Source: Atribacterota bacterium (GTDB taxonomy: Bacteria; Atribacterota; Atribacteria; Atribacterales; Caldatribacteriaceae). Taken from it: a DNA stretch of 51,093 nt. The notes under the pieces were generated by a model. That model had not been told where the DNA came from. It did no database searches and was given only the letters and a program-made list of their open reading frames with translations. Shown in pieces: positions 2,835 to 49,921 of the stretch. Position 1 is the first letter of the stretch. The number at the start of each line of letters is the position of its first letter. The DNA is taken from positions 1 to 51,093 of the forward strand of contig JBDIWM010000009.1 of the NCBI GenBank assembly GCA_039638595.1. Reading direction: 5' to 3'. The translations under genes were made by a program, and so were the position numbers.

Positions 2835-2905
2835 CGTCAGGTTTTAATTTTGGGTAGTTGAACAATAGAACGGAACTTGGGAAAAATAGTGTTCTTCCGC
2901 TGCTA

Positions 2906-2934
2906 TTGGCAAAAAATTTTATCTTTCTTTTAGT
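2906..2934 (+). promoter_or_regulatory. Weak candidate promoter for the flgF operon
   Basis: TTGGCA (2906-2911), a 17-base spacer and TTTAGT (2929-2934) lie just upstream of the GGAGGTGA ribosome site of flgF. Both boxes are imperfect and the leader would be only about a dozen bases. No sigma-28 or sigma-54 pattern was seen in 2784-2953. Listed as a low-confidence guess. Confidence 0.25.
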
Positions 2935-2953
2935 GAATAGGGGAGGTGAAACG

Positions 2954-3712: not shown

Positions 3713-3728
3713 GGAAGGAGGTTTCAGG

Positions 3729-4517
3729 ATGATTCGAGCGCTATGGACGGCAGCTACCGGAATGCAGGCCAAGCAGATGGACCTTGATGTCATCGCCAAC
3801 AATCTGGCTAATGTGAATACCACGGGGTTCAAAAAAAGCCGGGTTGATTTCCAGGACCTGATGTACCAGATAATTCGGGTGAAAGGGACACCCACTTCCG
3901 ATGAAACTCAGGTTCCTTCGGGAATTGAGGTGGGATTAGGAGTGCGACCGGCTGCGGTGCAGAAGATTTTTACCCAGGGTGATATTTATGAAACGGGAAA
4001 CGCTCTGGATCTTGTCATTGAGGGTGATGGGTTTTTCCAGGTACTCATGCCCGATGGGACCATTGCGTATACTCGGGATGGGTCGTTTAAACTTGATGCT
4101 CAAGGTCGGATGGTCACAAGTGATGGTTTTCCTCTTGAGCCGGCGATTACCATTCCGCAGGAAGCAGAATCAGTGACTGTTGCCCAGGATGGAACAGTAA
4201 CGGTGAAAATACCGGGGGAAACAGAACCACAGGAAGTTGGAGTTATTGAATTAGCGCGTTTTGTCAATCCAGCTGGGCTTTTGAGTGTTGGACGTAATCT
4301 CTACCTGGCGACCGCTTCTTCCGGTGAAGCGCAGCTCGGGACACCGGGACTCGGTGGTTTCGGGACGCTGGCGCAGGGTTTTTTGGAAACTTCAAATGTG
4401 CAGATTGTGGAAGAAATGGTCCGGATGATCAGTGCACAGCGGGCTTACGAGATCAACGCCAAGGCAGTGACCACAGCTGATGAGATGATGAGTATCGCGA
4501 ATGCCATGAAGAGGTGA
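3729..4517 (+). CDS. flgG: Flagellar distal rod protein FlgG
   Basis: A 262-residue protein of the usual length, starting MIRALWTAATGMQAKQ and carrying the rod signature VIANNLANVNTTGFKK. A central beta domain and the C-terminal helix VQIVEEMVRMISAQRAYE, typical of FlgG, follow. FlgG forms the drive-shaft-like distal rod crossing the periplasm through the P and L rings. GGAAGGAGG precedes the ATG. The gene overlaps flgA by four bases, so the two are probably translationally coupled. Confidence 0.96.
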   Translation: MIRALWTAATGMQAKQMDLDVIANNLANVNTTGFKKSRVDFQDLMYQIIRVKGTPTSDETQVPSGIEVGLGVRPAAVQKIFTQGDIYETGNALDLVIEGDGFFQVLMPDGTIAYTRDGSFKLDAQGRMVTSDGFPLEPAITIPQEAESVTVAQDGTVTVKIPGETEPQEVGVIELARFVNPAGLLSVGRNLYLATASSGEAQLGTPGLGGFGTLAQGFLETSNVQIVEEMVRMISAQRAYEINAKAVTTADEMMSIANAMKR

Positions 4518-5476
4518 ATGAGTTGAATTGGTTGTTCTCCCTTCTCGTCGCTTTTTGTTTTCTAGTGGAGGGAGTAGCCGGAGCACTCACCTTACAGGTG
4601 GATTTAAAGGCTCATGTTGAGTGCCGTGCCGGTCGGCTCACCATAGGAGATGTGGCAATCGTTTCCTATCCTGATAAACAGTGGGAGGAGCGAATTCGCA
4701 AGCTTGACCTTGGATATCTTCCACCGTTGGGTGAGGTGCGTATCGTGAAGCCTAAGGAAATTTACCAAAAGGTGGTGTCCAAAAACATTCCTGGTCTTGA
4801 CTATATCTATTTTCAAGGGAGTGACTGGTGCCAGGTGGTGGTCGTGGGACAGAAAATTGACCGGGAAACATTAGCAACCCGCCTGGTACGAATGCTCAAG
4901 GAAAGGTTTTTCCCCCATGCGCAAGAGGTGGAGGTGGAAATCCTGAGTTCAGGGGAGGATTTGGTTATTGGCGAAGGAAGTTCCTTTGATTTGGAACTCT
5001 CCTCGGTTAAAACCTGGGGGATTAACAGAGGTACCATTCGTGAACTTGGAGGCGAGGCGCGAATTCCCTTTACTTTTGCAGTGCGTGTTTATCGGGAGGT
5101 AATCCGTGCTGCTCGGGATATTCTTCCCCAGGAAACCATTCAGGAAGAGGACCTCAGGCTTGAGGTAGAGCTTCTCTCTGCAGAAAACGAAAAGGCACTG
5201 TCCAGTATCGACCAAGTTCTGGGGAAAAAGGCGAAAAAGAAACTGGGTGCGGGAGAGGTGATTACCGAGAATACATTGGCGCAAGAAGCCCTGATCCAGA
5301 GAGGTGACCTGGTGACCATTGTGGCACAAAAAGGAGGGATTGTGGTGACTGCGGTGGGAAAAGCCCGGGGAAGCGGTTTGCTGGGTGATATGATTGTGGT
5401 GGAAAATTTGACTTCTCGCAAAAGAGTGGAAGCCGAAATTGTGGGTGAACGGATGGTGCAGGTGAAGGTGAAATGA
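4514..5476 (+). CDS. flgA: Flagellar P-ring assembly chaperone FlgA
   Basis: A 320-residue periplasmic protein with an N-terminal signal segment (about residues 5-24). The C-terminal SAF domain includes AARDILPQETIQEEDL, IQRGDLVTIVAQKGGIVVT and the RGSGLLGDMIVVEN loop typical of FlgA. FlgA chaperones FlgI polymerisation around the rod. It starts with GTG at 4514, overlapping the flgG stop (GTGA), and itself overlaps flgH by four bases (ATGA). It is longer than enterobacterial FlgA (about 220), as in many deep-branching bacteria. Confidence 0.9.
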   Translation: MNELNWLFSLLVAFCFLVEGVAGALTLQVDLKAHVECRAGRLTIGDVAIVSYPDKQWEERIRKLDLGYLPPLGEVRIVKPKEIYQKVVSKNIPGLDYIYFQGSDWCQVVVVGQKIDRETLATRLVRMLKERFFPHAQEVEVEILSSGEDLVIGEGSSFDLELSSVKTWGINRGTIRELGGEARIPFTFAVRVYREVIRAARDILPQETIQEEDLRLEVELLSAENEKALSSIDQVLGKKAKKKLGAGEVITENTLAQEALIQRGDLVTIVAQKGGIVVTAVGKARGSGLLGDMIVVENLTSRKRVEAEIVGERMVQVKVK

Positions 5477-6069
5477 GGAAGCTGGCATTCGGAGTATTGC
5501 TTTTGTTTTGCCTGGTGTTGGTGGAAAGTGTGTTTGCTGCGTCACTATGGACTGACGATGGATGGTTTTCGGATCCCTATTCAGATCGAAAAGCAGGGAA
5601 AGTCGGTGACATCGTAACGGTGATCATCGAAGAAAACACCAAAGGGAACAATACGGCGTCTTCTTCAGGAGGGAATAGTACACGTATCAGTTTAGGGGCC
5701 GGACAGGGCATTTTTGACTTTATCCCTCCTGCGAAACTGGAACATTCCAGCTCTCAGCAAAGTCAGCGGTCATATCAGCGAGGTATCAGTTTGCAGGGTG
5801 TCATTACCTGTCAGGTGGTGGAAGTGCTGGAAAGTGGGAATTTGAAAATTGCTGGGAAAAAAGAAGTGTTCCTGAATAAAGAACGGGAAACAATTTATAT
5901 TGAGGGGATTATCTCGCCCCAGGCGCTATCAGCAAGTAATACCGTTTCTTCAACCCAGGTTGTCGATGCTGTGATTCGGCTGGAAGGAACACTCAAACCA
6001 AAGAAACGGAATGGTCTTTTGGGCATTTTCGAGGGTATTTTTGGTTCCATCATGGATATTCTTTTCTGA
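5473..6069 (+). CDS. flgH: Flagellar L-ring protein FlgH
   Basis: A 198-residue protein that forms the outer-membrane L ring. After a signal peptide (about residues 1-22) come GKVGDIVTVIIEENTKGNN, the central region ending GVITCQVVEVLESGNLKIAGKKEV, and the YIEGIISPQALSASNTVSSTQV motif, all diagnostic of FlgH. Enterobacterial FlgH is a lipoprotein, but no lipobox cysteine is seen at the expected cleavage site here (VFA-AS instead). Its presence is direct evidence for an outer membrane. It lies between flgA and flgI. Confidence 0.95.
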   Translation: MRKLAFGVLLLFCLVLVESVFAASLWTDDGWFSDPYSDRKAGKVGDIVTVIIEENTKGNNTASSSGGNSTRISLGAGQGIFDFIPPAKLEHSSSQQSQRSYQRGISLQGVITCQVVEVLESGNLKIAGKKEVFLNKERETIYIEGIISPQALSASNTVSSTQVVDAVIRLEGTLKPKKRNGLLGIFEGIFGSIMDILF

Positions 6070-6082
6070 GGGATGTTGGACG

Positions 6083-7198
6083 ATGAAAAAAGGAATGGTG
6101 GTACTTCTATTCTCCTTTATTCTGGGATTCTGGATTCCGTTTCAGGCTTTTGGGGAAACGGTGCGGATTAAGGATATCACCGAAGTGGAGGGAGTTCGGG
6201 GGAACCAGCTCGTGGGGTATGGTCTGGTGGTGGGTTTATCGGGAAGTGGTGACAGCCAAAATAGCCTCTTTACCAATCAAGCCCTGGGGAATGTGCTCGA
6301 AAAATTGGGTTTAACGATCAATTCTCAAGCAGTACGAGCAAGGAATATTGCCTCGGTCATCGTAACGGCTGAACTTCCCCCCTTCGTGGTCGCGGGAGAA
6401 AAAATCGACGTGATGGTTTCTTCTATGGGTGATGCAAAAAGCTTGCAGGGTGGAGTACTGCTTTTAACCCCCCTTAAAGGAGTCGATGGGAAAGTTTATG
6501 CCGTAGCGCAAGGACCGATATCGGTGGGTGGGTTTAGTGCCGGTGGAGGAGGAAACCAGGTGCAGCGGAACCATCCTACGGTCGGGGTTTTGTCTGGGGG
6601 GGCGATTGTGGAAAGAACGATTGCGACGGACTTTTTTAACGCCGATAAAGGAACTGTGACCTTTCTTTTACGGGAGCCAGATTTTGTGACGGCTTCCCGT
6701 GTGGTTCTGGCCATCAATGAGGAACTGGGAGGAGATAAAGCGAAGGCTCTCGATGCCAATCGAGTGGAGGTGAGTGTTCCTAACCATTATCGTGGTCGGA
6801 TATCACAGCTTGTGGCACTTCTGGGAGAACTTCCGGTTGAGCCAGATGTACCGGCACGGGTGGTAGTGAATGAGCGGACCGGGACGGTGGTCATTGGTGG
6901 GAACGTGCGGATCTTGCCTGTTGCTGTTTCTCATGGTAATCTAACGGTAACGGTGAAAACGGAGTATAAAGTGTCTCAGCCTCCTCCTCTTTCAGGTGGA
7001 GAGACGGTGGTTGTTCCTCAAGAGGAAGTGAGGGTAAGGGAAGAGGAGGCTCGCCTTTTTCCGGTTCGTTCGGGGAATACCATTGAGGATCTGGTCAGCG
7101 TGCTCAACAGTTTAGGAGTGAGCCCCAGAGACCTCATCGCCATTTTGCAGGCGATCAAAAAAGCTGGAGCGTTGCAGGGTGAACTCATTTTGGAGTGA
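6083..7198 (+). CDS. flgI: Flagellar P-ring protein FlgI
   Basis: A 371-residue protein of normal length with a signal peptide (about 1-22). VRIKDITEVEGVRGNQLVGYGLVVGLSGSGDS is the conserved start of mature FlgI; PGLSGGAIVERTI-like and PNHYRGRISQLVALLGEL-type segments follow (here VGVLSGGAIVER, VPNHYRGR). FlgI polymerises on peptidoglycan as the P ring. I start at ATG 6083 because it gives a clean signal peptide and GAGGGA (6068-6073) precedes it; the longer frame from 6011 runs inside flgH. The C-terminus ends in a LNSLGVSPRDLIAILQAIKKAGAL motif, as in the family. Confidence 0.96.
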   Translation: MKKGMVVLLFSFILGFWIPFQAFGETVRIKDITEVEGVRGNQLVGYGLVVGLSGSGDSQNSLFTNQALGNVLEKLGLTINSQAVRARNIASVIVTAELPPFVVAGEKIDVMVSSMGDAKSLQGGVLLLTPLKGVDGKVYAVAQGPISVGGFSAGGGGNQVQRNHPTVGVLSGGAIVERTIATDFFNADKGTVTFLLREPDFVTASRVVLAINEELGGDKAKALDANRVEVSVPNHYRGRISQLVALLGELPVEPDVPARVVVNERTGTVVIGGNVRILPVAVSHGNLTVTVKTEYKVSQPPPLSGGETVVVPQEEVRVREEEARLFPVRSGNTIEDLVSVLNSLGVSPRDLIAILQAIKKAGALQGELILE

Positions 7199-7202
7199 GA
7201 AT

Positions 7203-7541
7203 ATGGAAGTCACTCAGGTTCAGGAAACAACGTCACGAATAGAGCCAAAAATGGAAAAACGTCTTCGCTCGGCTTGTGAAGATTTTGAGGCATTCCTTTT
7301 GAGTTTTGTGTTTAAGAGAGCGTTTCAGCCAGTTTTTGGGTCGTCTCTTTTTTCTACCCAGGAAGAGCTCTGGTTCCGAGAGATGTGGCTTGAGGAAGTA
7401 TCGAGAAACTTGGCCCGTCAGGGAGGGGTAGGGATAGCCAAGATGCTTTTCCAACAGTTGGTTAAGGAGAATAAGATTGAGTGCAAGGCGGCTGAGAACC
7501 TTGGTTCTGGCTCGGTGCAGGCGGTGTGGAAAAGTATTTAA
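7203..7541 (+). CDS. flgJ: Rod-binding protein, FlgJ N-terminal domain only
   Basis: A 112-residue protein matching the rod-binding (FlgJ-N) domain: ACEDFEAFLLSFVFKRAF, LWFREMWLEEVSRNLARQGGVGIAKMLFQQL. Proteobacterial FlgJ carries a second muramidase domain, absent here, so peptidoglycan opening must come from another enzyme. I start at ATG 7203, preceded by GGAGTGA; the GTG at 7179 would lie within flgI. The 3' end overlaps the next gene by 65 bases. Confidence 0.85.
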   Translation: MEVTQVQETTSRIEPKMEKRLRSACEDFEAFLLSFVFKRAFQPVFGSSLFSTQEELWFREMWLEEVSRNLARQGGVGIAKMLFQQLVKENKIECKAAENLGSGSVQAVWKSI

Positions 7542-7917
7542 TAAGGTGATAGAAAAAGACCTTTGCCCAGCTTGCCTGGAAGAAGAAGAGGAAGAATTTC
7601 AAAAGGTTAAAACTTTTTTTCGGGAACATCCTCGAGCGCGTCTTGATGAAGCCAGTCGAGAAACCGGCGTTGATAAAAAAACCATCATGCAATTTTTGAA
7701 GGATGGGAGATTACAGCTTGTACCCCATCAGGGAGAAGTTCCGGAAGAAAGTCTTTTCTGTGAACGATGCGGTAAGCCGATTCCACAGGGTCGATTGTGT
7801 GAAGAGTGTAAGAAAAAAGTCAGCCTCCTCATTTCACAGAGCTTAAAAGAGGGATTAAACTCCTCCCCCAGTTTTTACTTTAAGGATGTCATCGAAAAAA
7901 AGCTTGAGAAACGCTAA
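7477..7917 (+). CDS. YvyF-like flagellar-region protein (TIGR03826 type)
   Basis: A 146-residue soluble protein with an N-terminal four-Cys finger (CRRC then CPAC), a helix-turn-helix-like middle (ARLDEASRETGVDKKTIMQFL) and a second four-Cys set (CERC then CEEC). This layout matches Bacillus YvyF, encoded between comF and flgM and usually lying just before flgM, as here. Its function is unknown; a DNA-binding or chaperone-regulatory role is possible. TTG 7477 has a strong site (AAGGAGA, 7464-7470); TTG 7501 is an alternative matching YvyF length better. The stop codon TAA contains the -35 of the sigma-28 promoter of flgM. Confidence 0.75.
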   Translation: MSARRLRTLVLARCRRCGKVFNKVIEKDLCPACLEEEEEEFQKVKTFFREHPRARLDEASRETGVDKKTIMQFLKDGRLQLVPHQGEVPEESLFCERCGKPIPQGRLCEECKKKVSLLISQSLKEGLNSSPSFYFKDVIEKKLEKR

Positions 7918-7941
7918 AGAAATTGACGGGGAAACCGATAT
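7914..7941 (+). promoter_or_regulatory. Sigma-28 (FliA/SigD) promoter of the flgM operon
   Basis: CTAAA (7914-7918), 16 bases, then CCGATAT (7935-7941). This matches the Bacillus SigD pattern (TAAA, about 15 bases, GCCGATAT) with a single mismatch. The -35 overlaps the stop codon of the YvyF-like gene. Transcription would begin near 7949, about 25 bases before flgM. FlgM inhibits the very sigma factor predicted to read this promoter. Confidence 0.82.
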
Positions 7942-7973
7942 AATAGTATAGAAGCAGAAAGAGGGGGTAGGAG

Positions 7974-8288
7974 ATGAAGATTTCTCATAATCAGGTGGAG
8001 AGCATTTTAAGGCTCTACGCCGATAGGATTCAAGGGAGTGGAAAAAAGAGGAAAAGCGCAATAGAGGAGGGAAAACAGGATACCGTTACGTTTTCCTCCC
8101 ATGTCGAAGAAATCAAGGAATTGTATGCGCGATACAATGAAATTCCAGAGGTGCGCGAGGAATTGGTAAAGAGTATCCAGGAGCGTTTAAGCCGGGGTGC
8201 GTATCAGATTGATGGCGAAGAGGTGGCCCGGAAGATGATTCAGAGGGAAATGGTGGACTTTTTAGTGAATAGGAGTGGATTTGATTGA
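7974..8288 (+). CDS. flgM: Anti-sigma-28 factor FlgM
   Basis: A 104-residue protein whose C-terminal half (R-ELVKSIQERLSRGAYQIDGEEVARKMIQ) carries the FlgM sigma-28-binding signature; the N-terminal part is basic and low in order. FlgM holds sigma-28 inactive until the hook is finished and FlgM is exported. A sigma-28 promoter lies directly upstream, giving feedback control. GAGGGGG precedes the ATG. The stop overlaps the flgN ATG by one base (TGATG). Confidence 0.88.
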   Translation: MKISHNQVESILRLYADRIQGSGKKRKSAIEEGKQDTVTFSSHVEEIKELYARYNEIPEVREELVKSIQERLSRGAYQIDGEEVARKMIQREMVDFLVNRSGFD

Positions 8289-8797
8289 TGGATGGGGAAA
8301 ATTTCCTTGCTTTCCTCTTGACTCTGTTGGAAAAGGAAACGCAATTCCAGAAGGAGATTTTGCGCTGTGCCTGGAAGAAAAGGCAGTGTTTACTCAAAAA
8401 CCGGATGGAGGAATTGAGCGAGCTTTTGGAACGGGAAGGAGAATTGGTGTTTCAGGCAAAAGAAGTTGAAAGGAAAATTGAAAGGCTCTGGAAAGAGAGA
8501 GCACCTCTTTTAGGGTTCAATTCCGAAAAACTGAATATTTCTGATCTGGCTACTCTGGTGGGAGGGGAAGAGGGAGAAAAGTTTTTGGCAGTACAACAAG
8601 AACTCAAAGAGGTTGTGATGGAACTCCAGAGGGTCAATCATGAAAATGCCATGATTATTCGGGATACGCTGAATTATATCGAAGTCATGTTTTCCATCAT
8701 TCTAAGGGAGTTTGATCGCAAAGAGCAGAGTTACGGTTGGTTTGGTACCGGGTTTGAGAATGGCCCCCGTGGTCTCATTATTAACGGGGTAGTGTAA
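8288..8797 (+). CDS. flgN: Flagellar export chaperone FlgN
   Basis: A 169-residue, almost wholly alpha-helical protein: three long amphipathic helices, LKNRMEELSELLEREGEL in the first half and VNHENAMIIRDTLNYIEVM near the C-terminus, as in FlgN. FlgN escorts the hook-filament junction proteins FlgK and FlgL to the export gate; both genes follow directly. ATG 8288 is chosen for the TGATG overlap with flgM. Sequence conservation in this family is low, so the call rests partly on position. Confidence 0.83.
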   Translation: MDGENFLAFLLTLLEKETQFQKEILRCAWKKRQCLLKNRMEELSELLEREGELVFQAKEVERKIERLWKERAPLLGFNSEKLNISDLATLVGGEEGEKFLAVQQELKEVVMELQRVNHENAMIIRDTLNYIEVMFSIILREFDRKEQSYGWFGTGFENGPRGLIINGVV

Positions 8798-8808
8798 GGA
8801 GGCCGAAA

Positions 8809-10209
8809 ATGAGTAGCGAGTTCTATGGTTTGGAAATCGCCAAGAAAACCCTGCAAGCACAGCAGCTGGCAATGAATATCTCTGGTCACAACATTGCCAA
8901 CTCGAATACTGTCGGATATACCCGGCAGGTTCCCAAGTTCGTTCAGCAAACTTCTTCTCCTATCGGTCTTTTTACGCTTCCATATATCAAGAATATCAGT
9001 AGTGGAGTCGTGTTGGAAGAAGTACAGCGTGTTCGGGATCGGTATCTTGACCTTCAGATTCGTCAGGAATCTCGGCGTGAGGCTTACTGGAGAACAATGG
9101 GTGAAGGGTTAGGGCAAATCGAGCTTATTTTTGGTGATCCGAGCGAAAGTGGTCTCTCGAACATCTTTGATGGATTCTGGAATACCTGGCAGGAGTTGGC
9201 TGCCGCTCCTGAGTCGTCCGCGGCTCGAGTTCTGGTTTCGGAAACAGCGAATCTTTTAGCGAAGGCTTTTAACGACACTTATGGCCGGTTAGAAAAACAG
9301 CAGTTGCAAGTAAACGAAGAGATTGCCATTAAGGTGGCAGAAGTGAATAATTATCTGCAGCAAATTTATGATCTCAATCATCAGATTGTTCGGCTCGGTG
9401 CAGGTGGGGGCAATACCAATGATTATCGTGACCAGCTCGATGTTTTGGTTGATAAGCTCTCCAAGGTCCTGAGTGTCCAGGTTAAGGATAATGATAATGG
9501 AACATATACGCTGATTTTGCAGGGTCAGATTTTGGCCAATAGCGAGACCAGAAGCGAACTCTTCTTGGGGACGGATCCGGTTACCGGCTTTTATACAGTG
9601 GGGCTTGGTGCTTCTGGGGAGACACTGAACCTTTTGTACCAGAATGGAGAGTTGAAGGCTCTTTTTGATTTGCGGGATGGGAGCTTAGAGGAATATAAGG
9701 GTTATCTGAATCAGTTAGCTATGGACCTGATGGATGCTGTGAACGGTTTGCACCAAACCGGTTATACTCTGGAAGAACCGCCGGTTCAAGGTAGTACCTT
9801 TTTCGTTGGTTCTGGAGCTTCTAATATGGCCGTGAATCCGGATATCCTGGTCGACGAGCGTAAGATTGCTGCTTCCTCAACGGGTGCTGTTGGTGACGGG
9901 AAGGTTGCTTTAGCCATTGCTGAACTGCGAGGAGAAAAAATCATTGATGGTGCTTCTGCAACCCCGGATGACTACTATCGAGGTTTTATGTCCCGTCTGG
10001 GGACGCAAAAAAGCGAAGTGAATCGCCTTGTCTCGAATCAGAAGCTTTTGGTGGAAGAGTTAGAAGCCCGTAAAGAATCGGTTTCAGGGGTTTCTCTGGA
10101 TGAGGAAATGACCAACCTCATCAAATATCAGCATACGTATGAGGCAGCTTCGTTTTTGGTGAATACGATTGATGGTATGCTGGAGACGTTGATTTCCTGG
10201 TTACGGTAG
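8809..10209 (+). CDS. flgK: Flagellar hook-associated protein 1 FlgK (HAP1)
   Basis: A 466-residue junction protein. The N-terminus has the axial signature NISGHNIANSNTVGYTRQ and the C-terminus has SLDEEMTNLIKYQHTYEAASFLVNTIDGMLETLI, both diagnostic of FlgK. FlgK and FlgL join the hook to the filament and are exported with FlgN. The gene follows flgN by 11 bases with AAGGAGG before its ATG, and abuts flgL. Confidence 0.95.
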   Translation: MSSEFYGLEIAKKTLQAQQLAMNISGHNIANSNTVGYTRQVPKFVQQTSSPIGLFTLPYIKNISSGVVLEEVQRVRDRYLDLQIRQESRREAYWRTMGEGLGQIELIFGDPSESGLSNIFDGFWNTWQELAAAPESSAARVLVSETANLLAKAFNDTYGRLEKQQLQVNEEIAIKVAEVNNYLQQIYDLNHQIVRLGAGGGNTNDYRDQLDVLVDKLSKVLSVQVKDNDNGTYTLILQGQILANSETRSELFLGTDPVTGFYTVGLGASGETLNLLYQNGELKALFDLRDGSLEEYKGYLNQLAMDLMDAVNGLHQTGYTLEEPPVQGSTFFVGSGASNMAVNPDILVDERKIAASSTGAVGDGKVALAIAELRGEKIIDGASATPDDYYRGFMSRLGTQKSEVNRLVSNQKLLVEELEARKESVSGVSLDEEMTNLIKYQHTYEAASFLVNTIDGMLETLISWLR

Positions 10210-10218
10210 GTGGTGGAG

Positions 10219-11397
10219 ATGCGAGTTACGCAGCGAATGATGACTGATCGAGTGATGCGGAATCTCCATAGTATTACTTCTCGGCTTTTGGAGATCCAGG
10301 ATCAGCTTTCTTCTGGGAAAACCCTGCGCCGTCCTTCTGACGATCCGGTGCGCTTCAATCGGGTGTTGAATTTACGCACTTCTTTGAATAAACTTGAACA
10401 GTACTATGCGAATGTTGCGGGTGCCGTTGACTGGTTGAACCTCATGGATTCCAGTTTGGGGCAGACGGTTGATGTACTGCAGAAAGTGCGTACTTTTGCT
10501 ATTGCAGGAGCGAATGGAACGCTAACCCCTGAAGATCAGTCTGTCATTGCGGAAGCGGTGGAAGAAGCTTTGAAGGAGCTTCTCCAAATTGCCAATACTC
10601 ATTCTGGAGATAAGTACCTCTTTTCCGGTACCCAGACCTTGACCCCTCCTTTCGCCATTACTGGTGGTACGGTGAAATACTGGGGTGACGGTGCTTCGAT
10701 GGTTCGAGCCATAGATGAAAAAACGGTCATGGAGATTAGTTTCCCAGGGGATCAAATTTTCTTCCGTGGTTTTGAGGTATGGAGTACAAATCCCATTACT
10801 TTGAACAATGGGGATAGCTTCTCGATTAATGGGGTTACGATTACCATCGATGGTTCTATCGGAAGTGTTCAGGACCTGGTAAATCGAATTAATAACGATG
10901 TTACCCTCAAGCAGTCAGTGTATGCATATTTCGACGGTTCTCGTCTCTTTTTGCGTTCCCGTTCAGATGCTTCCTTCACCCTTTCTGATGTTTCGGGCAC
11001 TCCTTTGCAGGATTGGGGAATTTTGGATGCTGGTGGCGTGATCATCAATTCGCGGGAGGCAGGAGGGGTGTTCAGGGTGGTTCAAGAGCTTATTGCTGAC
11101 CTTCGTTCTGGGAACCAGGAAAAGATTTCTGGTGAGGACATCGCTAATCTGGATGCGGTGATTGACCAAGTACTCAAAATTCGTTCTCAAGCTGGGGCGA
11201 AAACCAATAGATTGGAGAATGCTTTGAGTCGGTTTGACGATTTTAAACTGAGTTTTAAGGAGCTTCTTTCCAAAAACGAGGACATCGATCTTGCGGAAGT
11301 GGTGATGTATCTTCAGGAACAAAAAAGCGTGTATGAAACTGCTTTGGCTGCTGCTGCTCAGGTGATTCAACCGACCCTTTTACAATTTCTTCGTTGA
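10219..11397 (+). CDS. flgL: Flagellar hook-associated protein 3 FlgL (HAP3)
   Basis: A 392-residue protein with a flagellin-like N-terminal D0/D1 region (RVTQRMMTDRVMRNL, SSGKTLRRPSDDP) and a C-terminal helix (ALAAAAQVIQPTLLQFLR). The middle has a variable beta domain with an FSGT-type motif. It forms the second junction layer under the filament. I start at ATG 10219 because AGGTGGT (10208-10214) sits five bases upstream; the GTG at 10210 directly follows the flgK stop. It is followed by fliW after 13 bases. Confidence 0.93.
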   Translation: MRVTQRMMTDRVMRNLHSITSRLLEIQDQLSSGKTLRRPSDDPVRFNRVLNLRTSLNKLEQYYANVAGAVDWLNLMDSSLGQTVDVLQKVRTFAIAGANGTLTPEDQSVIAEAVEEALKELLQIANTHSGDKYLFSGTQTLTPPFAITGGTVKYWGDGASMVRAIDEKTVMEISFPGDQIFFRGFEVWSTNPITLNNGDSFSINGVTITIDGSIGSVQDLVNRINNDVTLKQSVYAYFDGSRLFLRSRSDASFTLSDVSGTPLQDWGILDAGGVIINSREAGGVFRVVQELIADLRSGNQEKISGEDIANLDAVIDQVLKIRSQAGAKTNRLENALSRFDDFKLSFKELLSKNEDIDLAEVVMYLQEQKSVYETALAAAAQVIQPTLLQFLR

Positions 11398-29336: not shown

Positions 29337-29346
29337 AGGTGCGTGC

Positions 29347-30222
29347 ATGGGTGAGTTCAGGATTCAAGACGTTATTGGATTGATCCTGGCAATTTTAATC
29401 GTGGCTATTTTAATCAGTATTATTCTGATTTTGCGCGAGAGTGCTCGGGAGAGAAGGCGGTGGACCAGTGAAGAGGAGGAAGAAGAGGAAGTGGGAAAGA
29501 GGCGTTTTCCCTTTCCCCCTCGAGAAGCCACTCGTGGGGCGAGTGAGGTTTCAGGTGAAGCCATACGAGAGGGAAAGTGGGGTGCTTTGCCCCGTCCCCG
29601 GGTGACTGAAGAAGAACAAGAAACGGTTGAAGAAGTTGTCAAAGAATATCCCAAGAAAGGGTATCCTGTCCAGGAAGAGACCGAAAAGGAATTAACCCTT
29701 AAGGAGAACCAAAGGGTAGGGGAAGAAGTGAGGAAAGGGAAAGAACCGAAACAAGTGGTCATCGAAAGGGCCTTGCGAAAGCTTGAAAACCAGGGGATTG
29801 ACTTTGGTAAACTCAAATCTCTGGTGACTGAAGAGATGCTCTCTTTTTCGCCTCTCCTCTGGGAAGTGAAAGAGGAGGTTCGCTCAGGAAAAGAATTGGG
29901 AGAAATCGTGATTCATACTGTTTTCCGAACCATTCCTGGATATTCTGGGGAGGAAATTGTTGAACGATATCGTTCCGGAGATATATCGATTGTAGAGAAA
30001 CTGGAAGCACGAATCAGAACTCCCGAGGGGAGAGATTTCCTCGTGGCAACTCTGAGCCTTGAATATTTTCACGTTCCAGAACTGGAACGAGAAATGAAAA
30101 GGGGGAGTTTGGAGAAAGAAGAATATGAGCTCTTGCGAGCTTTAAAATTCGTGGATCGGAGCACAAAAAGAGAATTCGCTCGTGCCGTTTACGCTCAGAT
30201 TATGAGTGAAGACAAAGAGTAG
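29347..30222 (+). CDS. Membrane-anchored helical protein of unknown function
   Basis: Not recognised. A 291-residue protein with one N-terminal membrane helix (about residues 9-29), a basic stretch (RESARERRRW) and a run of seven Glu (42-48), then a low-complexity linker rich in Glu, Lys and Val (about 50-135). A predicted helical domain (about 135-291) follows (RALRKLENQGIDFGKL, EIVIHTVFRTIPGYSGEEIVERYRSGD). The basic residues after the helix favour a cytoplasmic C-terminus. Start ATG 29347 follows AGAGGTG. It ends the suf operon and precedes a tiny membrane ORF and the long coiled-coil gene. Confidence 0.7.
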   Translation: MGEFRIQDVIGLILAILIVAILISIILILRESARERRRWTSEEEEEEEVGKRRFPFPPREATRGASEVSGEAIREGKWGALPRPRVTEEEQETVEEVVKEYPKKGYPVQEETEKELTLKENQRVGEEVRKGKEPKQVVIERALRKLENQGIDFGKLKSLVTEEMLSFSPLLWEVKEEVRSGKELGEIVIHTVFRTIPGYSGEEIVERYRSGDISIVEKLEARIRTPEGRDFLVATLSLEYFHVPELEREMKRGSLEKEEYELLRALKFVDRSTKREFARAVYAQIMSEDKE

Positions 30223-30426: not shown

Positions 30427-30457
30427 TTTCTAAGGATTTGTGAGGGGAGGTGGTTTT

Positions 30458-33310
30458 TTGAAAACATGGTTTGGGCTTCTCGTGGCGATTGTGGCGATTA
30501 TCCTTGCTTTGGTACTTCTTGCTCAAGTACCTCGTTTGGGTGGTCGGTTGCAAGAGATGGAAACACGACTTTCGGAAGTGGGAAAAAGGGTGGAAGATTT
30601 GGACACTACTCTCAAAACGTTTCCGGGTGATTTATCGCAATTGCGTGAGCGGCTTTTGGGTATGGAGGAACAGGTAAAAGCCACTTTGGAGGTTAGCAAG
30701 AAGGTGGATTCTCTGGCAACATCGGTGAAGAATCTTGACAATTTTCAGGCAGAGGGGCAAAAGACCATTACTGATGTCCAGAGAAAGTTGGATGAGGTGG
30801 AAAAGAGGACAAAAGGTGCGAAAGATATGCTTACTCAAATGGATGACAGGGTTGGGGTTTTGGAGGCGAAAGTTAGACGACTTTCGGAAGTGGAGTCGCT
30901 CTTCAATGTTGTCAGCCAGAAGGTGGATTCATTATCTTCATCTTTTCAGCAAGTCACTGCTTCGCAACTTGAGGAAAAGAAAATCGTTGAGGAACTTGGG
31001 AAACGAATCGACAATCAGGAAAAAGAGACTGAGGGACTGAAACAAGCTCTAAGGATTTTCGATGAAAAGTGGCAGGATTGGGTTGGAAGCCTTGAAAGTC
31101 TGAAAACGCTTGTTCAATCTTCTCTGAGCCGAGTGCAAACACTCCAGGATACGGTTCAAGCCATGGAACAGAGTATTGCCGCTCATGATTCCAGGATGGA
31201 AACAATTCGTCAAGAGATGCGGAAAAACCTTGCCGAATTGGAAAATTTGCTGAGTGCGTTACATATCGACCAGCGTTTTTCAGCGCTTTTAAAGTACGTT
31301 CAGGATAAAGACAAAGAACTGAGATCACTTTGGGAGGACCTGGAACAGAAGCTTAAGGAGAAGGATGGGGTGTTTCAGGATCTTGAGGGCAAAGTGAACA
31401 GGGATTTTGAAACGCTGAAGGCCATTCTGGAGGGCTTGCAGCAAGATATCGCTGTGCTGAAAGGGGAAATAGAGGAAAAGTTGCAAATTCTTTCTGCTTC
31501 ATTCCAGGAAACCAGGGATCTTTTGGAAGAAAAGATACAAGATTGGGAGACCATCAGTCAAAGACTGGCAGCACTTCAGAAGGAATATGTTCCTCAGAAT
31601 CGCTGGGAAGAATTCGTCTTGGAGTGGCAAAAGCAGTTACAGGTTTTTGAGGGAAGTATCAAGGATTTAGCGGTCAAGGTGGATGCGAAGTGGAAGGAGC
31701 TTGAAGAACGCCTGAGGGAGGTAGAAGGTTTATTTAACGAACAATCTCGGCGGGTGGGAGAAATTCGAGAAGAACTCGAGCCAGCGATTGAGGCACTCCA
31801 GGAGAAGGTTTCTCTGCTGGAGGGCGATTTTGAGAAAAATAAAGTATGGATTATGGAGGTAGAGAACAAGCTTGGTGAGAATGCCGGAATCGTTGAAAAG
31901 CTATACAAAGATATTGCAGAAGTGGGTCAAAGTATTGCTCTCTGGGAGGGAAGACTCCGGGAGCTAACGAGCTTTAAAGGAGAATTAGGACAGGAAATCG
32001 ACGAAAAATTGGACAAGGCGTTAAAAGAGCTGCCTGATAAGGCCAGGCTGGAAGTGCTGGAGAAAGACATGGCTACCATCCTTGCTCAGAAAGAAGAGAT
32101 TTTGTCCCAGTTGCGTTTGTGGTATGAAGAACGAGAACGGTTACAACAGGAACTGGAGGGGCGTAAGAAAGATATTGGAAATTTAGAAAAGCGTATCGCT
32201 GAAGAAGAAGCGGCAGGTCGTTCTACCCAGGAGGCTTTGATGAAAATGAAGGAGGAGTTGGAGAGCCTTTCTGGGCTGCGGAAGGAACTCGAAGAGAGGT
32301 TATACCAGTTTAATGGTCAGATTTCTACTCTGGAAGCAAGCCTCAAAGAGCACGAGACGAAAATGGACAACCTGGTTCGTGCCACGAGTCTTGAAGTTCA
32401 GCAATTGACAAAAAGCGTGGAAACCATTCAAGAGGATTTGGGAGCGTTGAAAAAAGAAGGTATTACGCCTCCTCAACATGCAGCGCAGGCTCTGCAAAAC
32501 CTGGAAGAGGGGCTCGCAGGGGTATCACAACGTCTCCAGGAGGTCGAAGGTTTTGCACAAAACTTCTTCCGTATGGGTATTGAGGCTAAGATTTCTTCCA
32601 TGGGAGAGGAAATTCAGGCAGTGGCTAAGAAAATTGAGGGGGTGATGGAACGCTATCCAGCCACGTCGGCAGAAATTGAATCGCTCCGGAAGATGGTCGA
32701 GGAATTGTGGCAAGAGAAGTCGAACATTGAAAAACGCTTTGAAAATCTTACTCAGGAGGTGGAAAGTCTCAAAAAGGGGAAAGAAATTATCGGTGATGTA
32801 GAAAGTCTGAGTCAGGAAAAAGAGCGGTTGCGCCAGGAAATAGAAAGTTTGGCTGGAGAAAAGATGGATCTGGAAAGCGAACTCCAAAAGCAGCAGTACG
32901 AGGTGGAAAAAATCAGGGGAGAACTCCAGAAGCTCGAGGTTGAAAAAGGTTCTACGGAAGAAATTAACCGGTTACGAGAAACCTTGCAGAAGGCCGAAGA
33001 GGGAGTTAACGTTTTAAAGCAGCAGCTTAAGGAGAAAGAAGAACAGATTGAGGCTCTTCAGAAAAAAAATGAGGAATTGAGCCGTCAGTTAGAAGAGACC
33101 GAGAAATATACTTCCTATGTCATTTTACCCTGGGATAATCTGTGGACCATTGCACGGCGATACTATCGAGATGGTCGAAAGTGGAAAGCGATCCTTGAGG
33201 CCAATAAAAACGTCATCGCCGATCCATACAGGCTTCAGCCCTACTTGGAAATCAAAATCCCCCGCCAAACTGTGGATGTGACTGTGGAAGGCGAACCTGA
33301 TGACAAGTAA
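30458..33310 (+). CDS. Giant membrane-anchored coiled-coil protein with C-terminal LysM domain
   Basis: A 950-residue protein not matching any named family I know. One membrane helix lies at about 4-23, then an almost unbroken heptad-rich, Glu/Lys/Leu/Gln-rich coiled coil runs to about residue 880. A LysM-like domain (884-935; ILPWDNLWTIARRYYRDGRKWKAILEANK, then LEIKIPR) closes it. The helix orientation and LysM suggest a periplasmic protein fixed to the inner membrane and binding peptidoglycan. TTG 30458 is chosen for the GGGGAGGTGG site; the GTG at 30440 precedes that site. Followed by the nitroreductase after 15 bases. Cytoplasmic placement, as in SMC-like scaffolds, is possible. Confidence 0.8.
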   Translation: MKTWFGLLVAIVAIILALVLLAQVPRLGGRLQEMETRLSEVGKRVEDLDTTLKTFPGDLSQLRERLLGMEEQVKATLEVSKKVDSLATSVKNLDNFQAEGQKTITDVQRKLDEVEKRTKGAKDMLTQMDDRVGVLEAKVRRLSEVESLFNVVSQKVDSLSSSFQQVTASQLEEKKIVEELGKRIDNQEKETEGLKQALRIFDEKWQDWVGSLESLKTLVQSSLSRVQTLQDTVQAMEQSIAAHDSRMETIRQEMRKNLAELENLLSALHIDQRFSALLKYVQDKDKELRSLWEDLEQKLKEKDGVFQDLEGKVNRDFETLKAILEGLQQDIAVLKGEIEEKLQILSASFQETRDLLEEKIQDWETISQRLAALQKEYVPQNRWEEFVLEWQKQLQVFEGSIKDLAVKVDAKWKELEERLREVEGLFNEQSRRVGEIREELEPAIEALQEKVSLLEGDFEKNKVWIMEVENKLGENAGIVEKLYKDIAEVGQSIALWEGRLRELTSFKGELGQEIDEKLDKALKELPDKARLEVLEKDMATILAQKEEILSQLRLWYEERERLQQELEGRKKDIGNLEKRIAEEEAAGRSTQEALMKMKEELESLSGLRKELEERLYQFNGQISTLEASLKEHETKMDNLVRATSLEVQQLTKSVETIQEDLGALKKEGITPPQHAAQALQNLEEGLAGVSQRLQEVEGFAQNFFRMGIEAKISSMGEEIQAVAKKIEGVMERYPATSAEIESLRKMVEELWQEKSNIEKRFENLTQEVESLKKGKEIIGDVESLSQEKERLRQEIESLAGEKMDLESELQKQQYEVEKIRGELQKLEVEKGSTEEINRLRETLQKAEEGVNVLKQQLKEKEEQIEALQKKNEELSRQLEETEKYTSYVILPWDNLWTIARRYYRDGRKWKAILEANKNVIADPYRLQPYLEIKIPRQTVDVTVEGEPDDK

Positions 33311-44681: not shown

Positions 44682-46289
44682 TTGGATGTTACACGTCAGA
44701 ATCTTTTCATAATTTGGGGAGTTTTAATATTCATTTGTCTTACTTTTGTCCCGTCAGGATGGGCTCGCCTTTCGTATTTCCCCTTTCAGGACGTGCAGAA
44801 GGGCATGGAGGCTGTGGGAAAAACTGTGTTTCATGGAACCAAAGTGGAAGAGTTCAAGGTTGAAGTTATCGATGTGGTGCGAAGCAAGGATATTCGCGAC
44901 AGTTACTTTGTCGTACGGGTTGAGGATCAGCGTGTAAAAAGCCTAGGTGGAATTTCTGCCGGGATGAGCGGCAGCCCCGTATATATCAAGGGAAAAATTG
45001 CTGGAGCCCTGGCCTATAACTGGGAGACGCAGGACAATCTGGTCGGAGTGGTAACGCCAATCGAGGCCATGCTCTCCATTTGGAAGGAAGAGGAGACCCT
45101 TGCCCCTCTTGACGGTTTAGAAAGCTCGGTTGTTTTTCTGCGGGGTTTTCGGGGAAGAGCTGGGGAATTGCTTGCAAAAACTCTGCGGGATGAATTTGCG
45201 CTCCGGACAATTTTTACCCTTCCCAGTTTTATTTTTGGAGGGAGAGAAAAAGAAAAAAGTGAAGCTCCGCTTCAACCTGGGAGTGCCATAGGAATCCAGC
45301 TTTTGACTGGTGATGCGGAAATCATGAGCATCGGGACACTCACCTTTCGGGACGGAGAACGCATTTTGGCTCTGGGGCATCCATTTTTGCATCGAGGAAA
45401 GGCAAGTTATTTTCTTTCTTCTGTTTATGTGAATTTTAGCTTGAAAGGTGAAGATTTTCCCTTTAAGGTTGGGACCTCCCTTGAAACCGTTGGGATGATT
45501 GACCAGGATCGGGGGGTAGGGGTTTCGGGGAGAATTGGTACGCTTCCGGAAGGCAGCGAGGTAACCATCGTGGTGAGGGGAGGAAGCAAAAGGGGAGAGT
45601 ACCATTATCTATCTGTGAGGGATAGCTCAATCCTTTTGGAGGTCATTCCTAAAGTGATTCTCGATAGCATAGACCGGACCATTGATAGTCAAGTTCCGGG
45701 CAGTGGAAATGTGGTATTGAAGATGGGGAAAGGCGATTTCACCCTTCGGGAGGAATTCTTTGTGCTCAGTGATTCGGATATCGGTAACGCCATTGCCGAT
45801 TCCATGGGGAAGGTTCTGGAGGTGGTTTTGGCAAATCCCTATCAGGATGTAACGCCGGAGAAAATGGAACTGACCATAGAAATTTTTCCAGACCTCCAAA
45901 AAGGATGGTTGCTCTCGGCGGAATTTCCTCGAATTGTGAAGCGAGAGGAACCCGCAGAAGGGAGAATTAACTTTTTCCTGTATCGCCAGGGGGAACGAGC
46001 CATTGCCTTTCCCTTGACCATACCGGCTGATTTTTCTGCTGGAGAAGCAGAGGTGCTTGTGCAAGGTCGGGGAATTGGTGAAGAGACACCTCCGCCTTCT
46101 GGTACGCTTCCTCCAACCCTATCTGAATACCTCCGTAACTGGTTTGAGGAGTTCAGACGTAACGGGATCAAAGTTGAGGTGATAGCGAAAATGGGTTCCT
46201 CAGAAAACCGTCAGGTTTATTTTTCTCAGAACATCTATCTCCCGGTGATTCTGGAAGGAAATTTTTCCGCGAAGGTGTGGATTAATTGA
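44682..46289 (+). CDS. SpoIVB-type S55 peptidase-domain protein
   Basis: A 535-residue secreted protein. A signal-like segment (about 10-27) precedes an S55 domain: FPFQDVQKGMEAVGKTVFHGTKVEEFKVEV, then SLGGISAGMSGSPVYIKGKIAGALAY with the likely nucleophile Ser, and ILALGHPFL. The C-terminal part (about 300-535) is beta-rich and unassigned. Sporulation SpoIVB shares the domain, but many non-spore-formers carry longer S55 proteins. Sitting between mreB and tamB it probably works in the envelope. TTG start; it overlaps tamB by four bases. Confidence 0.8.
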   Translation: MDVTRQNLFIIWGVLIFICLTFVPSGWARLSYFPFQDVQKGMEAVGKTVFHGTKVEEFKVEVIDVVRSKDIRDSYFVVRVEDQRVKSLGGISAGMSGSPVYIKGKIAGALAYNWETQDNLVGVVTPIEAMLSIWKEEETLAPLDGLESSVVFLRGFRGRAGELLAKTLRDEFALRTIFTLPSFIFGGREKEKSEAPLQPGSAIGIQLLTGDAEIMSIGTLTFRDGERILALGHPFLHRGKASYFLSSVYVNFSLKGEDFPFKVGTSLETVGMIDQDRGVGVSGRIGTLPEGSEVTIVVRGGSKRGEYHYLSVRDSSILLEVIPKVILDSIDRTIDSQVPGSGNVVLKMGKGDFTLREEFFVLSDSDIGNAIADSMGKVLEVVLANPYQDVTPEKMELTIEIFPDLQKGWLLSAEFPRIVKREEPAEGRINFFLYRQGERAIAFPLTIPADFSAGEAEVLVQGRGIGEETPPPSGTLPPTLSEYLRNWFEEFRRNGIKVEVIAKMGSSENRQVYFSQNIYLPVILEGNFSAKVWIN

Positions 46290-49200
46290 GGCATCACAGA
46301 AGCGGAATTGTTTTACTTCTTTTTGTAGCTTTCCTTTTGGGTCTTTTCCTATGGCAGGAAAAGGATAGGTTGCTTTGCATGCTTGTCCAACGACTCCTCA
46401 CAAAAATTGAGCAGCTCACGGCGGTGGAGATTTCTATCAAGGAGGTAACGCTTCGTTTTCCACTTTCGCTGGAAATAAAGGGTATTGCCATTCAAGGGAA
46501 CAATTTTTCCCTTTTGGTTTCCCGGGGAAGGGTGCGTTGGAGTCCAGTTTTTTTCCTATATGGTCAAGCATCACGGGGGTGGATGCACGTTGAACTCGAT
46601 GATGGCGTGCTCACCACCAAACCTGGTAATCCTTTGGATTGGTTGACCTCGTTAACCTTTTCCCGCTGGCCTCCTTTTGAAGCGGTCTTACGAAAATTGC
46701 AGTGGAGAGGGAACGTGCCGCTTGCACCTCTAACGATTCGTCTTAGGAATTTGCAAGATGAATTCGTGATGGAAATCGAAAATGAAGAGCTGGAAATAAA
46801 AGGAGTTCTTCGAGAAAACAGGGAGTTGTCCTGGGAAGCCGGGATTCTACGGGATAAAAGTCGCTGGAAAGGACGTTTCGACCTTGAAAATAACCTGGTT
46901 CACGCGGAGAGTCTGGATAAGAAAGACCCTGTAATTGTGGATGGGCAATTGTCATGGCATGATACCCTGATTACCATTTTGGGGCTGACGGTGGATTGGG
47001 GGGGATGGAAATTCGCAGGAGAAACATCTGTAAAGCTTGCAGAGCATTTTCCTTTAACGATTCAAGGTGTGATGAGTGGAGAAAACAAAGACCAGCGTAT
47101 TGTACTCTCCATTCAGGGAGAAAACGTGTCCTTTCCCCAGGATTGGAAAGGGAATATTCAGGTGCAGGCTCCTTCTAGAAGCATGGAGGCACGAGGAAAA
47201 TTTTCCTTTTGGGGAAAAAAACGTGAAGTTTCCCTTGTGCTTGATGCTGTTTCTCTGCCAGGAGTGACTGGAAAAGGTGAAATAAAGGGATTCTGGCTGG
47301 GTGAAGAACTCAACTTCGTTTTGCAACCATTGGAGATTCAGCTTCTGGGAGGGAATTCGCTTCCCCAGGGAAAGGGGTTGTTGACGGGAAAAGTAGTCTG
47401 GAACAAGGAAGGATGGAGAGGAAAGCTTTCTTTTACAAGCGATGCACTCACTTTTGATCGTTTCTCCGTTGAAACTCCCCACGTGGAAGTGGAGATAGCA
47501 CCTGATAGGGCACCGTTGCTTTCGGGGAGTGGTGGCCTTTTTGGAGGAAACCTTGAGGTAGTGGGGTCTTTTCAAGATGGACGGTTATTCCTGGATGGAA
47601 ACGCACGGGGAATGCGGTTTGAGCGTTTTATGTCTCTGCCAGTTACCGGTACTGTTTCTGGAACATTGCATATCGAAGCGGGGAAGGGGAAGGAAGTGGT
47701 GAAAATTGCACTCACCGAAGGTGAACTGTGGTGGAACAGTATCATTTTAGGTCACGTTGCCGGTGGAATGGTGACATATAGGGGTGGGAGACTTGTCGCA
47801 GACGCTATCGTTCTTCAGAATGGAAATGGCTGGATTAAAGGAAATATAGATATGGATAGAGAGCGTTTTACTGGTGAACTCGAAGCATTCGATTATCCGT
47901 TTGCTTATCGCTTTGCAGGTTGGGAGGTTTCGGGTTTGGTCCAGGGTAAAGGCTCTCTTTCTGGGTCAAAGGAGGATTGGGCACTGGATTTATCCCTTTC
48001 CTCTTCTTGGAATGCGGGGGAAAAAAGTGGAACCCTTGCTTTGCGGGGGTTGCTCCAGGGTAAGACTCTTACCGTTGACGAATTTGTGTGTGACTGGGGA
48101 GAGGGATGGATAAAGCTCGCTGGAGCCGTTGAGGTGTACCGAAGTGTTGACCTTACTGGAGAGATATCCCGGCTGGTACTCCCTTCCAACCCTTTTGGGT
48201 GGAGCGGTGAACTCCAGTCCATGCGCTTTACTTTTCGTGGGCCTTGGCAGGGGGTCGATTTTTCCTGTGAGGCTGAAGGTGAAAATTTTGCCCTGCAAGG
48301 AAAGCCCTTAGGGGAGGGATTAATGCTTCGGGTGGAAGGGAACCTGCCTTTGCCAGCCGATAACACTGAGCGTATGACACTTGCCGAATACTTCGATCCT
48401 CGTTATTTTCGGGCTGGCGAAATCAGGATACGGGGAGTTCATCTTTCTTCGCTGGGAATCGATTTTCTTCATCGTTATCGGGGTGAGGGGACCTTGGATC
48501 TTGTATTCCATCTCCAACCGGAGACCAAACAATGGGGTTTTATGTCGGAGAAGTTTTCACTTATTTTTCCTGGTTATGTGAATTTTGAAGGTGAAATGAT
48601 GGGCATCTATGACGGAGAGGAATTAGAAATTAGCCAGTTATCCCTCAGGGATGCCGAGAAATGTCTTACCATTCACGGACAGGGGAAATTGGGAGTTAAA
48701 GAGAAAACGCTTGATTTTCGATTGCAAGGAGAAATAGACACCGTGTTTCCCTTTAAGGATGGTCAGTGGGTTTTTCATGGGAAAGGAGGGGGAGAAATCA
48801 TTATCACCGGGACTGCCGATAGTCCTTCGGTAGAGGGTAAGGTCGCTCTTACTCAGGGAGAACTATTCCAGGATGGCCAACAATATGCTTCGTTCACGAA
48901 CATCCAGGCAGAGCTTACCGAGGGAACATTGCACATCCTTTCGGCGAAGGGCACGGTGGGTGAGATGGTGATTACTGTTGATGGTACGCTTTCTCTAAAG
49001 GATGTCAATCTTCGTGGTCAGATCGAGGGAGTGGTGCCTTTTCCAGACCTTGCTCAAGTTCTGCGGGGGATGTGGAAAGGTAATTTATGGTTTCACGGGA
49101 CTTGGGATGATTTGAAACTACGTGGTGAACTTACCCTTCGAAACGGGTTATTGGATTTTCAAGAGAATAGGGGTGTAACTTCACAAGATCTTATCGGGAA

Positions 49201-49921
49201 GTTAAAAAAATGGGAAGAGTCTATTCCTCTTACCGTGGAACTCACCCTTTCCACTGCGGATATTCTGAAAGTAAAAACTCGCTTCATTGATCTTGGGTTA
49301 AAAGGGGCGTTAAAGGTGACCGGAAAGGGGAGTACCATCCAGGTGGAAGGGAAATTGGAGGTCGAAAAGGGAACGTATGACCTTGTTTTCGTCAAATTTC
49401 CTCTGAACGGTTACGTATTTTTTAACCACTTTGGGGCTTGGGAACCTCAGCTATCGCTGGAAGGAGAAAAGGAAGTCGGAAGGTATCGAGTGCGCCTTTC
49501 TGCTGAAGGAAACCTTAGTGATTATACCATTACTTTGAATTCAGAACCTCCACTCTCCCAGGAAGAAATTTTGTCTCTCCTTTTTCTGGGTCAAGAGGAT
49601 GCGTATCGTACTCTTGAAAACGTCAATGTGGCTCCGCTCCTTCTCAAAGGGTTGCAATTTTTGCTCCAAAAAAGTGGTGGCTTGCTTTCCAAAATACCCT
49701 TTTTTGACGAAATAACCTTTGATTCGTCTCGTTTTTCCCGATTATTCTTGGAGAAAAGACTTGGTAAAAATGTCTCCTTAGGGTATACTCAGGAGTTAAG
49801 TGGAGAAAAGAATTCATCCTGGAATGTCGAAGTTGATTTTGGCCGAGAGTGGTCCTTTAAGGGACAGATTGATTCCAAGGGTATCAAAGAATGGTGGTTG
49901 GAGTTTCGGACCAGATTTTAG
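46286..49921 (+). CDS. tamB: TamB-like translocation and assembly module protein
   Basis: A 1211-residue protein with an N-terminal membrane helix (about 7-24), a very long beta-rich middle with AsmA/TamB-type repeats, and a C-terminal DUF490/TamB domain (KGTYDLVFVKFPLNGYVFFNHFG, ADGNLSDYTITLNSEPPLSQEEILSLLF). TamB-type proteins span the periplasm as a hydrophobic groove for phospholipids and help with autotransporter or barrel assembly, usually with TamA or BamA. The bamA gene begins 29 bases later. TTG start overlapping the S55 stop. Confidence 0.88.
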   Translation: MRHHRSGIVLLLFVAFLLGLFLWQEKDRLLCMLVQRLLTKIEQLTAVEISIKEVTLRFPLSLEIKGIAIQGNNFSLLVSRGRVRWSPVFFLYGQASRGWMHVELDDGVLTTKPGNPLDWLTSLTFSRWPPFEAVLRKLQWRGNVPLAPLTIRLRNLQDEFVMEIENEELEIKGVLRENRELSWEAGILRDKSRWKGRFDLENNLVHAESLDKKDPVIVDGQLSWHDTLITILGLTVDWGGWKFAGETSVKLAEHFPLTIQGVMSGENKDQRIVLSIQGENVSFPQDWKGNIQVQAPSRSMEARGKFSFWGKKREVSLVLDAVSLPGVTGKGEIKGFWLGEELNFVLQPLEIQLLGGNSLPQGKGLLTGKVVWNKEGWRGKLSFTSDALTFDRFSVETPHVEVEIAPDRAPLLSGSGGLFGGNLEVVGSFQDGRLFLDGNARGMRFERFMSLPVTGTVSGTLHIEAGKGKEVVKIALTEGELWWNSIILGHVAGGMVTYRGGRLVADAIVLQNGNGWIKGNIDMDRERFTGELEAFDYPFAYRFAGWEVSGLVQGKGSLSGSKEDWALDLSLSSSWNAGEKSGTLALRGLLQGKTLTVDEFVCDWGEGWIKLAGAVEVYRSVDLTGEISRLVLPSNPFGWSGELQSMRFTFRGPWQGVDFSCEAEGENFALQGKPLGEGLMLRVEGNLPLPADNTERMTLAEYFDPRYFRAGEIRIRGVHLSSLGIDFLHRYRGEGTLDLVFHLQPETKQWGFMSEKFSLIFPGYVNFEGEMMGIYDGEELEISQLSLRDAEKCLTIHGQGKLGVKEKTLDFRLQGEIDTVFPFKDGQWVFHGKGGGEIIITGTADSPSVEGKVALTQGELFQDGQQYASFTNIQAELTEGTLHILSAKGTVGEMVITVDGTLSLKDVNLRGQIEGVVPFPDLAQVLRGMWKGNLWFHGTWDDLKLRGELTLRNGLLDFQENRGVTSQDLIGKLKKWEESIPLTVELTLSTADILKVKTRFIDLGLKGALKVTGKGSTIQVEGKLEVEKGTYDLVFVKFPLNGYVFFNHFGAWEPQLSLEGEKEVGRYRVRLSAEGNLSDYTITLNSEPPLSQEEILSLLFLGQEDAYRTLENVNVAPLLLKGLQFLLQKSGGLLSKIPFFDEITFDSSRFSRLFLEKRLGKNVSLGYTQELSGEKNSSWNVEVDFGREWSFKGQIDSKGIKEWWLEFRTRF

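Follow-up and report, generated by a model that had tools for sequence, protein, structure and literature searches.

A protein of 950 residues that joins one N-terminal membrane helix to a long coiled coil and a C-terminal LysM domain (hereafter the coil-LysM protein) represents, on comparison of sequences across genomes, a real family and a conserved single-copy feature of the Atribacterota. It is encoded in the window, the whole 51,093-nucleotide stretch of Atribacterota DNA analysed here, and is read, with somewhat more confidence than doubt, as a periplasmic tether: a rod anchored in the inner membrane whose LysM tip would hold the cytoplasmic membrane to peptidoglycan. The layout given in the original prediction, a single membrane helix, about 860 residues of heptad coil and a LysM domain, was confirmed by hydrophobicity, heptad tests, profile matching and fold, and since the protein proved to be conserved across the phylum, this first observation was somewhat better than stated. 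The assignment to the Atribacterota is supported by named relatives. The gene, its parts and its neighbours are located as follows.

29344 to 30222, + strand: upstream partner gene encoding a conserved membrane protein, a conserved neighbour in the window's class
30444 to 30453, + strand: probable ribosome binding site GGGGAGGTGG, read directly from the sequence
30458 to 33310, + strand: coil-LysM protein gene, 950 aa, TTG start; orthologues align full-length
30467 to 30523, + strand: membrane helix, residues 4-22, from hydrophobicity; short N-terminus with one K/R
30530 to 33106, + strand: segmented coiled-coil rod, residues 25-883, from heptad analysis and AlphaFold
31268 to 31279, + strand: D-x-R-F hinge motif, residues 271-274, from alignment; two copies in several relatives
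32666 to 33106, + strand: C-terminal stretch of the rod, residues 737-883, conserved at 43% mean pairwise identity
33107 to 33265, + strand: Kbp-type LysM, residues 884-936, from profile and fold, 78% mean pairwise identity
33320 to 33841, + strand: nitroreductase-like gene, 9 bases downstream, from a profile match; conserved neighbour

Direct reading of the sequence revealed an unbroken frame of 950 codons from the TTG at 30458, which is well spaced from GGGGAGGTGG, and in the alignment of relatives this start position is common to orthologues, which begin with MKNW or MRNW. A TATAAT is found upstream of the gene at about 30421; scanning for promoters and matching Shine-Dalgarno patterns yielded nothing specific to it.

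Residues 4-22 are the single hydrophobic segment of the protein (mean Kyte-Doolittle value 3.03), and no conserved signal-peptidase site was seen after it in the alignment of relatives; the helix presumably stays in the membrane as an uncleaved anchor. Its flanking charges, usually +1 on the N side and from -2 to +2 on the C side in the relatives compared, are such that the positive-inside rule does not settle the topology, which counts against the tether reading, and no strong positive cluster follows the helix, unlike in the upstream partner gene. An orientation with the N-terminus in and the C-terminus out is favoured because the same LysM type elsewhere looks exported and the host is a flagellated diderm with LPS transport. 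The latter follows from a flagellar cluster at 2858-11397 (+ strand), coding for FlgF/FlgG-type rod proteins, FlgA, FlgH, FlgI, FlgK and a flagellin-domain protein, and from the genes for LptA, LptB and LptF/G lying further on. Besides these Lpt proteins, FlgH and FlgI, the diderm envelope genes of the window include that of a TamB-like protein of 1211 aa (46286-49921, + strand), directly preceded by a SpoIVB-type S55 peptidase match at 44682-46289.

The coil of the rod, about 862 residues, has a global hydrophobic period of 3.50. In a sliding heptad test 79% of its 56-residue windows were above the 99th percentile of shuffles, while the figure was 0% for four other long proteins encoded in the window, tested similarly with slightly different settings. 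A heptad trace scored 183.9 against 65.3 +/- 5.8 for shuffles, about 20 standard deviations above, with hydrophobic residues occupying 83% of the a sites, 77% of the d sites and 3-14% of other positions. Of the near-continuous heptads originally described, the strong signal thus stands, but the continuity does not: the trace contains 15 register shifts, and AlphaFold predicts about a dozen helices with about ten breaks, near residues 22-30, 52-59, 169-175, 269-271, 376-379, 503-505, 525-527, 587-590, 667-672, 733-736 and 829-832. Short, broken helices had been named as the finding that would speak against the proposal; the rod is indeed segmented, into predicted helices of about 19-123 residues each. 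The model was built for a monomer, from which an oligomer state cannot be read, using an 18-sequence alignment, and its low confidence (mean pLDDT 66, pTM 0.32) makes the breaks provisional except for those at conserved residues, namely D-x-R-F at 271, P526, S-x-PE at about 733 and KGS at about 830.

The nominal length of the rod is about 128 nm, in agreement with the earlier estimate of more than 100 nm if straight. The periplasm spanned by a flagellar rod is normally about 25 nm wide, and a straight rod standing perpendicular to the membrane is therefore unlikely; this excess over a normal periplasm is a further point against the tether reading. The first suggestion, that such a rod has to fold back or run along the wall, is reasonable in view of the flagellar rod genes in the window and the many predicted hinges.

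In a whole-protein scan the tip matched the Pfam LysM profile PF01476 at residues 891-935 with an E-value of 0.002, its 18.5 bits falling short of the 20.9 cut-off; in a genome scan the match reached 23.6 bits, above the cut-off, and JS1-type relatives score 30-47 bits. The AlphaFold model gives the tip a beta-alpha-alpha-beta secondary structure, and Foldseek matched it to Kbp with probability 1.00 (1.1 A over 52 residues) and to the LysM of an extracellular injection system baseplate (1.3 A over 55 residues). In the window's class, PWD stands where a LysM usually has GD in the first loop, and PYx replaces the PGQ near the end; the JS1-type proteins share the PY at the position of PG. Since the domain is of the Kbp/phage-baseplate type and lacks the usual GD motif, glycan binding is not assured; the replaced GD and PGQ, and nearest folds (potassium-binding Kbp, baseplates) that imply no such binding, weigh against the tether. 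Outside Atribacterota, this LysM type is found mostly at or near the C-terminus of exported-looking proteins, some of them with a short coil.

A profile of this LysM found exactly one strong match per genome, at 96-110 bits, in 37 of 50 Atribacterota genomes, whereas all other LysM domains in the phylum scored no more than 38.4 bits. The best score among 336 genomes outside the phylum was 74.5 bits, a gap that arises partly by construction, since the profile was built from Atribacterota sequences; among the matches listed, these outside proteins mostly have 130-490 residues. Of 25 genomes of the window's class and order, 24 have a relative, whether full-length or partial, and the remaining one is only 60% complete. 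In five of the 13 genomes with no match, a contig ends at or inside the gene adjoining the expected site, and in another of the 13, G005, only the 5' part of the coil-LysM gene is found, at a contig end, so that absence in these is not evidence of loss. Five JS1-type assemblies (L207-L211) break inside the AMP-binding or ParA gene beside the expected place, which suggests that this region is hard to assemble. In genome G000, the only other strong LysM protein (contig C4:42015-42890) has 478 aa and at least five LysM repeats.

Conservation of size, which a homologue search was to check, was not found: proteins of the window's class have 739-1024 aa (mean 897), those of the JS1-type lineages 328-684 aa (mean 508). 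Despite this two-fold variation, the arrangement of membrane helix, coil and LysM occurs in both major lineages of the phylum. Orthology between them was not accepted on the LysM alone, as a model of the window-class domain ranks the JS1-type LysM not clearly above those of other phyla; the two are probably one family, a link drawn from the layout, the single copy and the shared PY for PG. In two genera, relatives have a second D-x-R-F motif, about 100-130 residues from the first, so the length variation looks partly like gain or loss of segments. Mean pairwise identity within the window's class is 43% in the helix, 25% in rod residues 26-524, 28-31% in 525-736, 43% in 737-883 and 78% in the LysM. 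With the LysM and adjoining rod constrained and the N-terminal half drifting, the rod appears to be a loose spacer and the tip the functional end.

Profile scans of the protein found no named family with the whole layout, as originally claimed, and no known family with a defined role explains it; a literature search found no paper mentioning LysM together with Atribacterota. Among the profiles of coiled-coil proteins, SpiroCoCo_C (73.7 against a cut-off of 125) and SpiroCoCo_N (41.7 against 75) fell short, while LA_3659 scored 41.7 against 36, its best stretch being coil residues 92-266 only. The totals for the Pfam families DUF1664, Baculo_PEP_C and GAS were above their cut-offs, although in two cases not by any single stretch; the three lie on the coiled coil amid many unrelated coiled-coil families and are read as composition matches. 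SMC/Rad50, of which only the coil arms match, far below the cut-offs, the ATPase head domains being absent, was rejected, as were tropomyosin, myosin and similar proteins, which match in coiled-coil composition with no defining domains.

Among known systems, Omp-alpha (OmpA1, Thermotoga) and SlpA (Deinococcus/Thermus) are likewise anchored in a membrane and carry, at the far end of a long periplasmic coiled coil, a domain that binds the wall; they connect the outer membrane to the wall, which they grip via SLH (PMC9388160). Their anchor is in the outer membrane, whereas the coil-LysM protein is anchored by its N-terminal helix, presumably in the inner membrane, and ends in a LysM; a Pfam scan found no SLH domain in it, and there is no C-terminal outer-membrane helix or barrel, the C-terminus being the LysM. 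With wall domain, anchor and polarity all different, it is not a member of that group and may best be read as resembling a mirror image of the Thermotoga Omp-alpha. The only SLH match of the genome is in a separate protein of about 607 aa, which could serve the outer-membrane side. The closest LysM folds are in Kbp/YgaU and in phage and injection-system baseplate proteins, from which the coil-LysM protein differs in joining its LysM to a membrane helix and a rod of 250 to 940 residues; no BON domain was matched in the Pfam scan, and no baseplate genes lie near the coil-LysM gene. Short secreted proteins of other phyla (for example L188, L189, L193 and L056) also pair an exported coil with a LysM of this type behind it, but with about 180-320 aa, a signal peptide in place of an anchor and often two LysM domains.

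In the favoured tether, the rod, probably a parallel oligomer, would project into or lie along the periplasm, jointed by the predicted conserved breaks, and its conserved last 150 residues would dock together with the LysM on glycan or an envelope partner. The N-terminal half would be a spacer of drifting length, changing partly by gain or loss of D-x-R-F hinge segments. The rod may thereby determine how far membrane and wall lie apart or how they are mechanically coupled, a role that Omp-alpha and SlpA have at the outer membrane; it would bend at its hinges, follow the wall or bridge wide polar spaces.

Gene order differs between the lineages. In the window's class, the upstream membrane protein gene and the coil-LysM gene are followed by nitroreductase and YchF genes. 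The nitroreductase-like gene is probably co-transcribed with the coil-LysM gene, and no functional link between the two is evident. The upstream partner, which 23 of the 25 class genomes carry once and the JS1-type genomes examined lack, consists of a single membrane helix 89% identical across genera, a disordered charged linker and a folded C-terminal domain (pLDDT mostly above 90), predicted to be cytoplasmic, for which no PDB fold match stood out (Foldseek best E 0.055; VIA-align best Z 4.4). In the JS1-type lineages, 10 of 14 contigs examined have the coil-LysM gene next to AMP-binding, ParA/MinD-like and extended-FtsZ genes; of the rest, three end before the site and one genome departs from this order. 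An N-terminally extended FtsZ occurs almost throughout the phylum and adjoins a ParA gene wherever examined, the two being conserved as a pair with a strongly conserved extension motif. One example is at 7846-10003 of L154 (G000 contig C26), where the ParA/MinD-like gene directly precedes the extended FtsZ (MKKKSLKRGFSERIDFKRELIRDTT...).

This neighbourhood supports an unlikely but not negligible alternative, a cytoplasmic division or positioning scaffold comparable to EzrA or TipN, with the N-terminus outside, a coil in the cytoplasm that would act together with extended FtsZ and ParA, and a LysM that binds protein or ions as in Kbp, a cytosolic protein among the nearest LysM folds. EzrA also has an N-terminal membrane helix and a long coiled coil, although no LysM, and its orientation differs if the LysM of the coil-LysM protein is outside. 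Its profile (PF06160) matched weakly, at 25.8 bits against a 39.6 cut-off and over the coiled coil only. Further points against a cytoplasmic coil are that the JS1-type gene and its neighbours are divergent or convergent and do not form one operon, that no FtsZ/ParA linkage exists in the window's class (in the window's own genome the extended FtsZ adjoins ParA, but not near the coil-LysM gene), that no strong positive cluster follows the membrane helix, and that this LysM type occurs mostly in exported-looking proteins.

Less probable than this is a periplasmic scaffold of division or of a third membrane layer, in which the rod would organise the envelope at the poles or the site of division, while extended FtsZ and ParA act from the cytoplasm. 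The JS1-type gene neighbourhood would fit such a role, as would the two FtsZ proteins (locus tags 00112 and 02154) and three membrane-like layers described in A. laminatus (PMC7736352) and the internal membrane seen in Thermatribacter velox (PMC11227167). The genomes that probably belong to these two cultured species contain the coil-LysM family, and genome G017, probably A. laminatus, has two ftsZ genes, at 108.7 and 2377 kb, positions that fit those locus tags. Against this, the link is one of gene neighbourhood, the identity of the layers was left unsettled by the authors themselves, and no co-loss of the coil-LysM protein and extended FtsZ emerged, the apparent absences being contigs that end beside the expected place. 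Still more doubtful is a phylum-specific envelope scaffold that would shape or divide the extra membrane layer with an extended FtsZ and ParA partner, its rod spanning or lining a wide polar space; the JS1-type neighbourhood with extended FtsZ is the nearest evidence for any internal-membrane role, and is no more than suggestive. Least probable is a generic long coiled-coil protein of no specific role with a decayed, non-binding LysM, which would agree with the absent canonical GD and PGQ and the drift of the rod in sequence and length, but is opposed by the 78% identity of the LysM, the single copy, the occurrence in all but one of the 25 class genomes and the conserved neighbours.

The Atribacterota are poorly known, and the reports of their three membrane-like layers and two FtsZ proteins come with no molecular explanation of these features. 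A rod with a wall-binding-type tip, found across the phylum in single copy and encoded next to the unusual FtsZ in one lineage, offers tomography and localisation work on the two cultured species a target. Should it prove to be a tether from inner membrane to wall, with a nominal length of 40-140 nm, it would be a counterpart of the outer-membrane tethers of other deep-branching diderms.
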